A stretch of DNA of 64,000 nt from Chloroflexota bacterium. Its GTDB lineage: Bacteria; Chloroflexota; Anaerolineae; Aggregatilineales; Phototrophicaceae. The position numbers were made by a program, and so were the translations under genes. Positions 5,731 to 64,000 of the stretch are shown here, in pieces (position 1 is the first letter of the stretch; each line of letters starts with the position of its first letter). The notes beneath the pieces are model-generated. The model was not told where the DNA came from. It made no database searches and saw only the letters and a program-made list of their open reading frames with translations. The stretch covers positions 1 through 64,000 of the forward strand of contig JAPOXG010000130.1 of assembly GCA_026707225.1 (NCBI GenBank), given 5' to 3'.

Positions 5731-6636
5731 ATGGCTGAAAATGGATATCGAGTCGCGCCAAAGGGCTTCACCAAGGCGCAGTGGGAAACGTTCTTGCGCG
5801 ATGGCATTATCATCATTGAGGATGCGCTATCGCAAAATGAAATCGACGAATACCTGGCGGCGATTGATCGTCTCACGGAGGCCGACCCCGACTATAAAGA
5901 AGGCGACCGCTTCTATCGCCAGAATTTCGTCGAGTTGGACCCAACACTGGCGGGGCTGATTGATCATCCGCGCCATGTCGGCTACGCCTACGACATTTAT
6001 GGCGAGCTGCTCAAACTGCACGAGACGCAGTTGTTCCTGCGGGAGCCCATGCAGGTTCAGCGCAACAAATGGCACCCGGACGGCGCGCGCGTCGTGCCTT
6101 ATGGCGTCTTTTCGCCGGTGCTGCCCTTGCAGATCAAGGTCGCCTATTGGCTGACCGATTTACCAAAGGCGGATATGGGCAATCTGGTCGTCTTGCCCGG
6201 CAGCCACCGGACACAATACCAGCAAGCCTACGACACCTATGACACGCTGCCGGGCGAGCTGATTCTGCAGGTGAAGCGCGGCGCCATGACGGTGATGCAC
6301 AGCAGCATCTGGCACAAGGTCGAGCCGAACCTCAGCAACGTTACGCGCAAGAACTTTTTCATCGCCTATTGCCCGGCCTGGGTAACCGCGGCCGACCGCA
6401 TCCATTCCGACCCCGAGTGGCTGAAGACCCTGAATCGCGAACAGCGCATCATCATGCGCAATTACAGTCATGGCTATGATTACGCCAAGCCGCCGCGGGA
6501 CGATTTCCCGCTATTCCTGGATCGGGAAACCGGGCTGGATCACGACCCCGACATTTATCACGAGCGCGTGATCATGGAGCGGCGCAAGCGCTTGACCTTC
6601 CACGAGAAACTTGAGCTGGCGCAGGCGGGGGCGTGA
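5731..6636 (+). CDS. phytanoyl-CoA dioxygenase (PhyH) family protein
   Basis: This 301-residue protein is a cytoplasmic Fe(II)/2-oxoglutarate dioxygenase of the PhyH family, which hydroxylates varied small molecules. The iron ligands are visible: H115 and D117 in NKWHPDG, and a distal His in SSIWHKVEPN, with an Arg in NVTRKNFF that would bind 2-oxoglutarate. The N-terminal FLRDGIIIIEDALSQNEID helix-strand is also typical. The start is supported by AGGGGAAA about eight bases upstream. The gene stands alone between the tRNA-Arg terminator and a sulfatase on the other strand. Two TATACT-like boxes lie upstream (5663-5668 and 5686-5691), neither with a well-spaced -35. The substrate is unknown. 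Confidence 0.85.
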   Translation: MAENGYRVAPKGFTKAQWETFLRDGIIIIEDALSQNEIDEYLAAIDRLTEADPDYKEGDRFYRQNFVELDPTLAGLIDHPRHVGYAYDIYGELLKLHETQLFLREPMQVQRNKWHPDGARVVPYGVFSPVLPLQIKVAYWLTDLPKADMGNLVVLPGSHRTQYQQAYDTYDTLPGELILQVKRGAMTVMHSSIWHKVEPNLSNVTRKNFFIAYCPAWVTAADRIHSDPEWLKTLNREQRIIMRNYSHGYDYAKPPRDDFPLFLDRETGLDHDPDIYHERVIMERRKRLTFHEKLELAQAGA

Positions 6637-58880: not shown

Positions 58881-59040
58881 TCGGTCTCAGCCGATATTGG
58901 GCAGAATTTGATTTGCGCCTGGCGGTTCGTTATCATTCGCATACCTTCCGAAAATGTGACAGTGTGTCCACGCCTCATTGCGGCAATAGACTTCGCGTGG
59001 GCGGCCTTCGCCCAGCCGGGGGTGATTGGGATAGGTGAAA

Positions 59041-59883
59041 ATGAACGACATCGAACAATACGAATTTGATCGACTCGGATACTTCGTCATCCCCAACTTC
59101 CTCACCGACGCCGAAGTGAGCAGCCTCTCCGCCGCCATCGACGCCGCCGAAGAAGACGCGCTGGCGCAGCTGGATCGCCCGCCGGACAAGATCAGCGCAC
59201 ACGGCATTCGCTATCGTCACAATCCCGAAAAGGGCTACTTCGTCAGCGGCGCGCGCGAAGAAGGCAACACCCTGATCATCGAAGATTTCTATAACGCCGA
59301 TCCCGCCTTCGATATCTTGATTGATCATCCACCGACGATGAAATACATTCGCGCCATCGTCAAGGAACGCCCGACGATCAACAACAGCGAGATTCGCATC
59401 CGCTACCCCGGCAACCAGACGGGATCGCACATGGGCGGACCAGTCAGCCCCAAACATCGCTACACTTATTCGGATCAAGGCATCGACTGCATGATGGTGC
59501 GCATGGTCTACTTCGTCCACGATGTGAACCCGGGCCAGGGCGAGTTCTGCGTCGTGCCCGCCACGCACAAAAGCAACATGGCCTCGCCCTACGAAGGCAG
59601 CGACCCCGACAAGGAACCGGGCATGATCGGGCTGCCGGTCAAAGCCGGCGACGCCATCTTGTTCACGGAAAACCTGCGCCACGGCGGCTTTACCAATCGA
59701 TCAAATCAGACGCGCAAAACGCTGCATATCGGTTATGGTCCCTTCTGGATGAAATCGCAAAATCACAGCACCATGGACGAAGAGCCCTACGTCTTGCCCA
59801 GCACCTTCGCGCGCTGGAACGATGCGCAGCGTTTGCTTTTCCGCGCCCACCGCACCTTGTTGGACAACCGCGGAAATGATTGA
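59041..59883 (+). CDS. PhyH-family protein, HxG motif (copy 1 of tandem pair)
   Basis: The 280-residue protein belongs to the phytanoyl-CoA dioxygenase superfamily, with the distal His214 in LRHGGFTNRSN and FCVVPATHKSN between. Where typical members have HxD, it reads H130-M-G-G in TGSHMGGPV. Gly at the third position is the change that in SyrB2/WelO5-type enzymes vacates a ligand for a halide; here it may also be a subfamily trait. AGGTGA supports the ATG at 59041. Gene start and stop lie 1089 and 1092 bases before those of copy 2. The two 3' halves are almost identical. Confidence 0.8.
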   Translation: MNDIEQYEFDRLGYFVIPNFLTDAEVSSLSAAIDAAEEDALAQLDRPPDKISAHGIRYRHNPEKGYFVSGAREEGNTLIIEDFYNADPAFDILIDHPPTMKYIRAIVKERPTINNSEIRIRYPGNQTGSHMGGPVSPKHRYTYSDQGIDCMMVRMVYFVHDVNPGQGEFCVVPATHKSNMASPYEGSDPDKEPGMIGLPVKAGDAILFTENLRHGGFTNRSNQTRKTLHIGYGPFWMKSQNHSTMDEEPYVLPSTFARWNDAQRLLFRAHRTLLDNRGND

Positions 59884-59972
59884 TATTGAACGACAGGAAC
59901 TCGCGGGGATCCCTTGCATCACCCTGCGTGATTCACGCGTCGACGCCGACACGCGCCATCGAGTTTGAGTGA
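59876..59972 (+). pseudogene. junction remnant: 5' end of esterase fused to 3' end of S33 hydrolase gene
   Basis: From ATG 59876 the first 19 codons match the esterase gene at 60968 (MIDIERQELAGIPCITLRD). The match then stops, and 59949-59972 matches the last eight codons of the hydrolase gene at 57411 (TRAIEFE plus stop). The frame ends at 59968. This is the junction of a tandem duplication and is not likely to be a functional gene. Confidence 0.8.
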
Positions 59973-60129
59973 GCGCCCCCGCCGCGAGCGCCCAGTATTT
60001 GACTTGAGCGGTCGGGTTCGCTATGTTTTGGTGAATGCCCGCTGCGCGGATTGCTAGCCTTGAGGCATATTCCGAATTTTAATGGCTCTCAAGCGTTAGC
60101 AAAGTGCGGAACCACCGCCAGGGATGGCA

Positions 60130-60975
60130 AAAATGAACGATATCGAGAAATACGAATTTGACCGGCTGGGTTACCTTGTCATTCCGAACATGTTGACCGA
60201 CAAACAGGTGAAGAATCTCTCCGCCGCGATTGACGCCGCGGAAGAAGACGCGCTGGCGCAAATGGATCGCCCGCCGGACAAGATCAGCGCTTACGGGCTC
60301 GAATATCGTCACAATCCCGAAAAGGGCTACTACGTCAATGGCGCCAAGGGCGAGGGTAATACGCTGCTTATCGATGAGTTTTTTAATATGGATCCGGCTT
60401 TCGACATCCTGGTTGATCATGCGCCAACTATGGCCTACATCGGGGCGATCGTGCAGGAACGATCGACGATCAACAATTCAGAAATGCGCATTCGTTACCC
60501 CGGCAACCAGACGTCTTCACATTGTGGCGGCCCTGTTGGCTTGAAGCTCCGATATAATTACAACGCGCGTGGAATCAACTGCATGATGGTGCGCATGGTC
60601 TACTTCGTACACGATGTGGGACCAGGCCAAGGCGAATTCTGCGTCGTGCCCGCCACGCACAAAAGCAACATGGCCTCGCCCTACGAAGGCAGCGACCCCG
60701 ACAAGGAACCGGGCATGATCGGGCTGCCGGTCAAAGCCGGCGACGCCATCTTGTTCACGGAAAACCTGCGCCACGGCGGCTTTACCAATCGATCAAATCA
60801 GACGCGCAAAACGCTGCATATCGGTTATGGTCCCTTCTGGATGAAATCGCAAAATCACAGCACCATGGACGAAGAGCCCTACGTCTTGCCCAGCACCTTC
60901 GCGCGCTGGAACGATGCGCAGCGTTTGCTCTTCCGCGCCCACCGCACCTTATTGGACAACCGCGGAAATGATTGA
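60130..60975 (+). CDS. PhyH-family protein, HxG motif (copy 2 of tandem pair)
   Basis: The 281-residue protein has the same layout as copy 1, with H131-C-G-G in SSHCGGPV and an identical C-terminal part from FCVVPATH to the end. The first two-thirds differ at many positions. AGGGA upstream supports ATG 60130 over the in-frame ATG at 60124. The esterase gene starts at 60968 within its stop region, an eight-base overlap, so both are translated from one mRNA. Confidence 0.8.
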   Translation, partial: KMNDIEKYEFDRLGYLVIPNMLTDKQVKNLSAAIDAAEEDALAQMDRPPDKISAYGLEYRHNPEKGYYVNGAKGEGNTLLIDEFFNMDPAFDILVDHAPTMAYIGAIVQERSTINNSEMRIRYPGNQTSSHCGGPVGLKLRYNYNARGINCMMVRMVYFVHDVGPGQGEFCVVPATHKSNMASPYEGSDPDKEPGMIGLPVKAGDAILFTENLRHGGFTNRSNQTRKTLHIGYGPFWMKSQNHSTMDEEPYVLPSTFARWNDAQRLLFRAHRTLLDNRGND

Positions 60976-61777
60976 TATAGAACGACAGGAACTCGCGGGG
61001 ATCCCTTGCATTACCCTGCGTGATACGCGGGTGGCTGAGGCGCCGGTGATTATCCACTATCATGGCTGGACCGGCGGCAAAGGCGCGCTGGAAACACCCG
61101 ATCAGAGCCAGGCGCGGCTGGCGTCGGCCGGCTTTCTGGTGGTGGCGCCGGATTGTTACGAACATGGCGAACGCGCGACCGACGCCTGGTTCCGCGCCCA
61201 ATTCAACGGCTGGGCATTCATCTGCCAGGCGATGGACCAAACCAGAAAGGAAGCGGCCGCGCTCTACGAAGCGGTCATGGGATTACCCTACAGTTCGACG
61301 CATAATCCGCAGGTGACGGGCGGCTCCATGGGCGGCTTGATCGCGCAGATGGTCTTCGCCGAGAACAGCGACTTCGCCTCGATGGTATCGGTCGTTGGCC
61401 GCTCCAGCTTTTACCAGGCTGACGAATGGTGCCGGGAAGCGCAAAGCGGCAGCTGGTGCGATGACTGGTGCGCCGAGTACGCCACCCAATCGCACCCGGA
61501 GCGCTTCACCGACCGGCCCCTGCTATTCATCGACGGCGCGCTCGATGCCGACTGCCCCGCCGAGACCAACGCGGAGACTGTACGTCTGATCAACGAAGCG
61601 GGCGGGCAAGCCGAGCACTTCGTCGATCCGGATTTTGGTCACGGCTTCTCGCCGCCGATGCGCGAAAAGTTCGTCGATTGGCTTGTGGAACACGGACAGC
61701 CGCCACTCCAAACTTCGACTATGACGACCACTGTAGGGGCGACCCTTGGGTCGCCCGCCGAAGCGCAAGATCTGTAG
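60968..61777 (+). CDS. alpha/beta hydrolase (dienelactone hydrolase/prolyl oligopeptidase-like esterase)
   Basis: The 269-residue enzyme has IIHYHGWTGG as oxyanion region, the nucleophile Ser in VTGGSMGGL, an Asp in GALDADCPAE and a His in FGHGFSPP. The frame extends upstream to 60914 but inside the dioxygenase gene; the ATG at 60968 is chosen by overlap and by the duplicate at 59876. The last 15 or so codons (TMTTTVGATLGSPAEAQDL) are encoded by a palindromic repeat, and the stop TAG is part of the next repeat unit. No signal peptide is seen. Confidence 0.85.
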   Translation: MIDIERQELAGIPCITLRDTRVAEAPVIIHYHGWTGGKGALETPDQSQARLASAGFLVVAPDCYEHGERATDAWFRAQFNGWAFICQAMDQTRKEAAALYEAVMGLPYSSTHNPQVTGGSMGGLIAQMVFAENSDFASMVSVVGRSSFYQADEWCREAQSGSWCDDWCAEYATQSHPERFTDRPLLFIDGALDADCPAETNAETVRLINEAGGQAEHFVDPDFGHGFSPPMREKFVDWLVEHGQPPLQTSTMTTTVGATLGSPAEAQDL

Positions 61778-61824: not shown

Positions 61825-62565
61825 ATGCCGCACGATGTTGACAAGATAATCGCCGAAATCGAAGCGCGCAGCTATTGCATCATCCCGTCAGTGATCTCGC
61901 CGGAAGAGGCGGACGAAGCGCGTGAAATCCTCGAAGGTCTGTTGGAGGCCGAGGCGACCGACGCATCGCGCGCAGCCAAGACCCAGCGCGTCGGCGGCAT
62001 TGCGGTCAAGCACCCGATCTTCGTCGAGCTCATGGCGCATCCCTTGATCGTCGCCATCTGGAAAAAGTACCTGGACGAAGACGTCATCTGCTCGACCTGG
62101 ACCGCCAACACCAGTTTCCCCGGCTTCGGCACATACAAGTGGCATCCGGATTTCCCCTTCCAATGGCTGAATTACCCCTGGCCGGATACGCCGGTAAGCG
62201 GGCAGACGATCTGGCTGCTGGATGACTTTTCGGTGGAGAATGGCGGCACCGGCATCATGCCCTACAGCCATAAGAAGGGGCATCGTCCGCCGGCCGACAT
62301 GATCGACAAGTGGCATCCCGATGGCGAGATCCTCACCGGCGTCCGCGGCAGCGTCATGGTATATCACGGCGCCACCTGGCATACCGCCCGCCCCAACAAT
62401 AGCGAGGCGCCGCGCAGCGCCCTATTAGGAATGTATACCCGTCCTTGTTATATTACGCAGGAAGACATGCTGGCGCAGTTGCGATTCATCGCTGAGCCGT
62501 CCGAAATCGTGCAGCAGCTGATGGGCGCCAAGCGTCGCCAGCCGGTCATCATCGCCAATCGCTAG
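61825..62565 (+). CDS. PhyH-family dioxygenase with canonical HxD
   Basis: This 246-residue protein keeps the full Fe(II) triad: HPD in YKWHPDFPFQ, distal His in HGATWHTARPNN, and an Arg in APRSALLGMY. It differs from the HxG tandem pair both in sequence and motif. I place the start at ATG 61825, 47 bases after the esterase stop; an upstream open frame is only an overlap with the esterase. The ribosome-binding site (GGAG) is present about eight bases upstream. The substrate is unknown. Confidence 0.82.
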   Translation: MPHDVDKIIAEIEARSYCIIPSVISPEEADEAREILEGLLEAEATDASRAAKTQRVGGIAVKHPIFVELMAHPLIVAIWKKYLDEDVICSTWTANTSFPGFGTYKWHPDFPFQWLNYPWPDTPVSGQTIWLLDDFSVENGGTGIMPYSHKKGHRPPADMIDKWHPDGEILTGVRGSVMVYHGATWHTARPNNSEAPRSALLGMYTRPCYITQEDMLAQLRFIAEPSEIVQQLMGAKRRQPVIIANR

Positions 62566-62691
62566 TTTGAGATCGGCAGCTATCGGGAGACGAATAAAAT
62601 CTAAAGCAGGGACTGTGAGGAGGACTTATCGGCAATTCCTTTAATTGAGAGGTATGATGGCGTAGCAAGACGCAAACATAAGGAGAACGAT

Positions 62692-64000
62692 ATGTTTTAT
62701 GCGAAACGTGTACTGCTAATCTCAGTTCTGGCGCTGGCGCTGGTCTCAGTATTGAGCCTCGCCGTCGCCCAAGATGAGGAACTGGTCTTTGGCGACCTGC
62801 CGCGCAGCGAGACCTTCATCGTCGCCTCGCAGGCGCCGCACAATGATGTCTGGGACAGCTTCAATTACTATCAAGCCGGCACCTACAACAACGCCACCGG
62901 TTACGCCAATGTGGTTCATGAGCCGGCTTTCATCACCGCCAACGGCTTTTACCCCTGGCTGGCGCAATCTTGGGAATACAATGAAGACGGCACGGAGATG
63001 ACGCTGGTCATTACCGAAGGCGCCAATTGGAACGACGGCGCGCCCCTGACGATGGATGACTGGCTCTTCACCTTGCAATACAACAAAGACCACGCTGACA
63101 AGGGCATTTCCTGGTCGGGGTTCTTGGCGAACGTCGAATGGAGCGCCGAGGGCAGCAGTATCACATTCACGCTGCCGGACACCAACTGGCGCTTCCACTA
63201 CAACTTCGGCGGCCTCGGCACATTCAGCCCCATTCCCAAGCACGTGTGGGAAGGTCAGGATCCAACCACATTCAAGAATCCGAATGCGGTCCATTCCGGT
63301 CCCTACCGCCTGGTCAGCAGCAACCCCGACACGCGCACGACGATTTGGGAGCGGCGCGATGACTACTGGGATCCGGACCGGTTGCCGGCGCCGAAGTATC
63401 AAGTCTGGCTGAAGCGGCCCGAAGCTGATGTGGCGGTCTTCGAATGGGAAGAGGGCAACTTTGATTTGGGGCGGATGCCTTTCAGCGTAATGACCCGGAT
63501 CATGAGCTCGAATCCGCATATCAAACCGCTGGTGCATCAGGACCCCTGTCCGCGCGCGCTCATCTTCAATACGCTAAATCCGCCGCTGGATGACAAGCTC
63601 TTCCGGCGCGCTTTGGGTCTGCTGCTGAATCGACAAGCGGTGGCTAACCTGGCGAATGTACCCGGCTATGTAACGCCGGTGCTTTGGCCGAATCTGGGCG
63701 AGCCTGACGAACGCTACTACGATGCGGCGGCGGCTGAAGAATTCCAGGTGACCACCTTTGATCCCGAAGCGGCAGCAGCGCTGCTGGATGAAGCCGGTTA
63801 TCCGCTGGTGGACGGGGCGCGCGTCAATAAGGACGGCGAGCCTATTTCGCTTGACGCGCTCTACATCGATATCGGCAACCCAGCCTGGACGGTCTGGTCT
63901 TGGCTGCTGGCTGAACAAGCGGAGTTGGTCGGCATCGAGATCAATCCGCGTCTGCTTGATATTCCGACCTTCTTTACGCAGTTGCCCAACGGCGAATTTG
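62692..64000 (+). CDS. ABC transporter substrate-binding protein family 5 (partial, cut by window end)
   Basis: The frame is open to the last base, giving at least 436 residues without a stop. It opens with a signal peptide (VLLISVLALALVSVLSLAVA, cleavage near AQDEE). EGANWNDGAPLTMDDWLFTLQY and NAVHSGPYRLVSSN are the N- and middle motifs of family 5 peptide/oligosaccharide-binding proteins. AAGGAG is seven bases upstream of the ATG, and TATGAT at 62653-62658 is a possible -10. No lipobox Cys is seen. The ligand is unknown; family 5 proteins also bind sugars. Confidence 0.9.
   Translation, partial: MFYAKRVLLISVLALALVSVLSLAVAQDEELVFGDLPRSETFIVASQAPHNDVWDSFNYYQAGTYNNATGYANVVHEPAFITANGFYPWLAQSWEYNEDGTEMTLVITEGANWNDGAPLTMDDWLFTLQYNKDHADKGISWSGFLANVEWSAEGSSITFTLPDTNWRFHYNFGGLGTFSPIPKHVWEGQDPTTFKNPNAVHSGPYRLVSSNPDTRTTIWERRDDYWDPDRLPAPKYQVWLKRPEADVAVFEWEEGNFDLGRMPFSVMTRIMSSNPHIKPLVHQDPCPRALIFNTLNPPLDDKLFRRALGLLLNRQAVANLANVPGYVTPVLWPNLGEPDERYYDAAAAEEFQVTTFDPEAAAALLDEAGYPLVDGARVNKDGEPISLDALYIDIGNPAWTVWSWLLAEQAELVGIEINPRLLDIPTFFTQLPNGEF

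Follow-up and report, generated by a model that had tools for sequence, protein, structure and literature searches.

The window that we analysed, a stretch of 64,000 nucleotides from a Chloroflexota bacterium, carries close to its end two neighbouring genes for PhyH-type oxygenases, followed by a hydrolase gene, a further PhyH gene and an open frame for a substrate-binding protein that runs off the window (Table 1). The open reading frame of copy 1 encodes 282 amino acids and has a GTG start, with an ATG at codon 3, and that of copy 2 encodes 283 amino acids and starts with ATG. Both proteins match the Pfam PhyH model (PF05721) over its full length (E 2.5e-13 for copy 1 and 4.6e-12 for copy 2), with scores of 51.2 and 47.1 bits against a cut-off of 22 and with model positions 1-212 of 213 covered. 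The canonical 2-His-1-Asp motif HxD/E of PhyH proteins is absent in both. In the alignments, copy 1 shows H-M-G-G at the HxD site, while H133-C-G135-G of copy 2 aligns there, and the distal H217 and R228 of copy 2 are kept. Reading frames, Pfam matches and alignments thus confirm the original prediction that HxG stands in place of HxD in both copies and that the distal His and Arg are retained. It had also stated that the PhyH genes at 5731 and about 61825 keep HxD, and indeed both read WHPD.

Table 1. Features of the gene pair and its downstream neighbours in the window.
Feature	Position	Strand	Basis
HxG PhyH oxygenase copy 1 (HMGG type); FTENLRHGG holds the acid and distal His	59035..59883	+	ORF, Pfam PhyH, alignment
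Relic behind copy 1, from the 5' end of the hydrolase gene downstream	59884..59940	+	Sequence comparison; L038/L039 fragments
HxG PhyH oxygenase copy 2 (HCGG type); H133, G135, E213, H217, R228	60124..60975	+	ORF, Pfam PhyH, alignments, model
Alpha/beta hydrolase (dienelactone hydrolase/esterase-like)	60968..61777	+	Pfam DLH 1.3e-9; conserved next gene in related loci
Canonical HxD PhyH (WHPD), operon partner	61825..62565	+	Pfam PhyH 5.3e-20
SBP_bac_5 substrate-binding protein, open frame running off the window	62605..64000	+	Gene clusters in related loci, Pfam

Copy history and operon context

The last ~300 bp of the two copies are 97-100% identical, compared with ~70-83% over the first ~480 bp; the near-identical C-terminal stretches extend over 59515-59940 and 60607-61030. 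Because the C-terminal halves are nearly the same, the copies are not independent witnesses over this part, but at the HxG motif itself each counts separately. The HMGG and HCGG types are old paralogues, which adjoin each other also in four related loci (L038, L039, L040 and L043). The C-terminal half of copy 2 is closer to the HMGG-type than to the HCGG-type paralogues, which points to a gene conversion from copy 1 to copy 2. Some 50 bases of the relic behind copy 1 match the sequence that follows 60975 almost exactly, and hydrolase-like fragments lie 3' of the first copy also in L038 and L039. Given this leftover of a hydrolase start, the original duplication probably took in the hydrolase.

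The likely ATG of the hydrolase (60968) overlaps the stop codon of copy 2. For the HxD partner, the nearest solved relatives are SptF and kanamycin B dioxygenase, and the substrate-binding protein has its nearest matches among mannoside/oligopeptide-binding proteins of the Thermotoga type. Most related loci share the order HxG PhyH, DLH-like hydrolase and HxD PhyH, and in the lineage of the window the genes for SBP_bac_5, OppB and OppC come after the HxD PhyH. The Caldilineaceae loci often have permeases upstream, with an SMP-30/gluconolactonase-like gene and a protein kinase on the downstream side. In a third group (L051-L055 and L065-L067) the hydrolase and the HxD partner are missing; Gfo/Idh/MocA dehydrogenases precede the HxG gene, and the opposite strand encodes an ASRT protein, a class II aldolase and a Peripla_BP_4 periplasmic binding protein. 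The conserved operon, which the pair heads and which has an SBP5/Opp importer in the window's lineage, suggests the catabolism of an imported compound, and one may speculate that this substrate is sugar-like or aminocyclitol-like.

A conserved acid beside the distal histidine

Scanning 84,980 species genomes furnished 33 loci of the subfamily, including one fragment. Almost all of these lie in bins assigned to Chloroflexota, several of which carry the label Anaerolineae or Caldilineaceae, and a single locus lies in a Phycisphaerae bin; more orthologues were found in Planctomycetota (L270, L271 and L280). A full orthologue is present in 24 of the 34 genomes searched of the window's own genus and in none of the 27 searched outside this genus but within its family and order. 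The genome itself has 42 PhyH matches in 4.3 Mb, a strong expansion like the one reported for Poribacteria (PMC3909097). Of the matches that we compared, HxG is confined to this pair and a more remote copy with HSGG on contig C73.

In the alignment of 34 subfamily members, which come from Chloroflexota and the Phycisphaerae bin, H133, G135, E213, H217 and R228 are invariant down to 47% identity, showing that the glycine is not there by chance. The acid lies exactly four residues before the distal histidine in all of them (E213-x3-H217). These data bear on the idea that the pair are catalytically dead or regulatory subunits, which would join the HxD PhyH downstream of them in a heterodimer, as TlxI joins TlxJ. 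Many related loci do have an HxD PhyH as the second gene after the HxG gene, and the weak PDB matches include TlxI, which is known to act as a chaperone-like PhyH partner. However, TlxI has lost the 2-oxoglutarate arginine, whereas the subfamily keeps both His, the acid and the Arg without exception, although a dead subunit would not need them, and in the loci of the third group the HxG gene is present but the conserved partner cluster is missing. We regard such a subunit role as very improbable.

We compared 185-186 PhyH proteins, taken from Chloroflexota and a single Planctomycetota genome, and found that the acid column most associated with the loss of the HxD acid is the one four residues before the distal histidine (position -4). 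With automatic calling, an acid is found there in 34 of 37 proteins without the HxD acid versus 11 of 149 with it; after correction of L102 and L103, which were mis-called and are both really HLGN, the numbers are 36 of 39 versus 9 of 147. Nearly all HxG proteins fall into one supported clade, in which the residue at -4 is always Glu or Asp. Distant relatives also combine HGG, HSGG, HLGN or HRG with FTE, FVD, FNE or FSE, with the acid at -4. The same picture emerged from 199 Planctomycetota genomes: every match without the HxD acid has Glu or Asp at -4, and the only HxD-type match (L279) has neither.

When both motif regions were left out of the tree, so that it was free of the trait columns, the HxG proteins with the acid grouped together with HygX in one clade of 35 rows (SH-aLRT 97), to which both window proteins belong; HygX sits on a long branch, and its exact place inside the clade is unsure. 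The suspicion that the HxG trait may define a subfamily is hence borne out, with the glycine invariant in the 34 aligned members and a single supported clade. On this tree the traits need only three changes, and there is one informative independent pair. This is close to a single event, so that the counts given above overstate the statistics. The association of HxG with the acid means conservation after essentially one change, not repeated coevolution.

Nested inside the HxG clade is a branch with the motif HADYG, comprising L034 from the window's own genome (contig C101) and its relatives L254-L268, in which HxD is present and the Glu at -4 is still kept. Retention of the Glu despite HxD indicates that it may have another role. 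One can think of an oxygenase with only two His ligands, with water in place of a carboxylate as in human AspH, where E213 would bind the substrate or tune the iron from the second shell. AspH works with two His ligands (PMC10947486), and the HADYG branch, which keeps the Glu alongside the HxD acid, fits this idea. It does not account for the fact that HxG goes almost exclusively with Glu or Asp at -4, and we consider it unlikely.

Two other acids were considered and rejected. E120 is invariant in the subfamily but is replaced by Tyr, Phe or other residues in distant HxG relatives, and D164 is an acid in most HxD proteins too.

We also observed a separate PhyH group (HAGE/HSGE/HAAE; L234, L240, L244 and L245) that has HxG or HxA without an acid at -4. 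Its relatives L232 and L237 have HSD. The group is possibly an HxxE ligand variant.

HygX and the halogenases

The nearest solved protein, both by sequence and by structure, is the hygromycin B orthosomycin oxygenase HygX. The structural match has a Z of 23.5 (2.5 A rmsd over 220 aligned residues); other PhyH structures reach 21-23, so that the rank alone is only suggestive. In the AlphaFold model of copy 2 used here the mean pLDDT is 80.8, and values below 50 at residues 133-139 show that the HxG loop is poorly predicted. In the alignments HygX has the motifs YLHGGNSELL, with H102, and NEALMHG, with E202 and H206, and the corresponding Arg is R217. HygX thus shares with the pair the PhyH fold, the glycine motif at the HxD site (HGG), the acid at the distal site (E202-x3-H206), the Arg 11 residues past the distal His and the clade in the tree. 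It differs by an identity of only ~21% and by ~11 extra residues after HGG. The original structure abstract reportedly describes variation in the metal coordination of HygX. The PDB entries (4xc9, 4xca, 4xcb and 4zpi) contain Fe, or Ni and 2-oxoglutarate, and a review describes HygX as a nonheme iron, alpha-ketoglutarate-dependent oxygenase (PMC8234114). While HygX belongs to antibiotic biosynthesis, the window pair is part of an importer operon; we saw no antibiotic biosynthetic neighbourhood around it, its neighbours being the hydrolase, the HxD PhyH, SBP5, OppB and OppC.

The canonical PhyH oxygenases EctD, human PhyH, KanJ and FtmOx1 carry the HxD motif. The pair has in common with them the fold, the distal His and Arg and the match to the PhyH Pfam model. 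Unlike the clade, HxD proteins are usually without an acid at -4.

The original prediction had left the choice between a halogenase and a different metal ligand. In the first case, the glycine would free a coordination position that chloride or bromide could take, as in SyrB2, WelO5 and AdaV, and a halogenated product would result. HxG/A is the accepted signature of Fe/2-oxoglutarate halogenases, the Gly is present here, as Gly or Ala is in AdaV, WelO5, BesD and SyrB2, and many relatives apparently derive from bins of sponge-associated, hence marine, origin. Set against this, the clade has an invariant candidate acid at -4, a difference to be read with the halogenases compared at the HxG/HxA site only. 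HygX shares these motifs and is classed as an oxygenase (PMC8234114), the operon with its importer looks catabolic, and a mining paper cautions that HXA/G searches yield false positives. None of the 50 structural matches listed is a halogenase, but such an absence is not evidence. The proposed search of homologues for an alternative acid ligand gave Glu or Asp at -4 in every HxG member of the clade. Since this acid, which the prediction itself had named as speaking against its idea, is conserved, and HygX is described as an oxygenase, the halogenase option is unsupported and in our view highly unlikely; the other ligand is the better of the two.

Proposed function and meaning

We believe that the pair are probably HygX-like Fe(II)/2-oxoglutarate PhyH oxygenases, with the carboxylate moved beside the distal histidine and with a substrate delivered by the importer of the operon. 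Membership in the HygX-like clade explains the HxG motif. This clade has lost the HxD aspartate, and the iron carboxylate most likely comes from E213, for which some branches have Asp. Iron would then be held by H133, H217 and E213, and R228 would bind 2-oxoglutarate. The pair probably hydroxylates or oxidises a substrate imported via the SBP5/Opp ABC importer, after which the alpha/beta hydrolase and then the second, HxD-type PhyH would act. Three elements of this reading are inferred: the metal ligation by E213, the oxygenase chemistry and the catabolic role.

It is quite possible, and we put it forward tentatively, that a PhyH clade across Chloroflexota and Planctomycetota has moved its iron carboxylate from HxD to E/D-x3-H. 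The HADYG branch with both acids would then complete a natural relocation series, and the pair would add an uncharacterised substrate class within a catabolic operon. HxG/A serves in genome mining for iron halogenases. In such searches the clade would be a false positive, for which E/D-x3-H at the distal His would be a simple filter. Finally, our data suggest that HygX, the only solved member found here, represents a common and nearly uncharacterised group of oxygenases in marine and sponge-associated bacteria.
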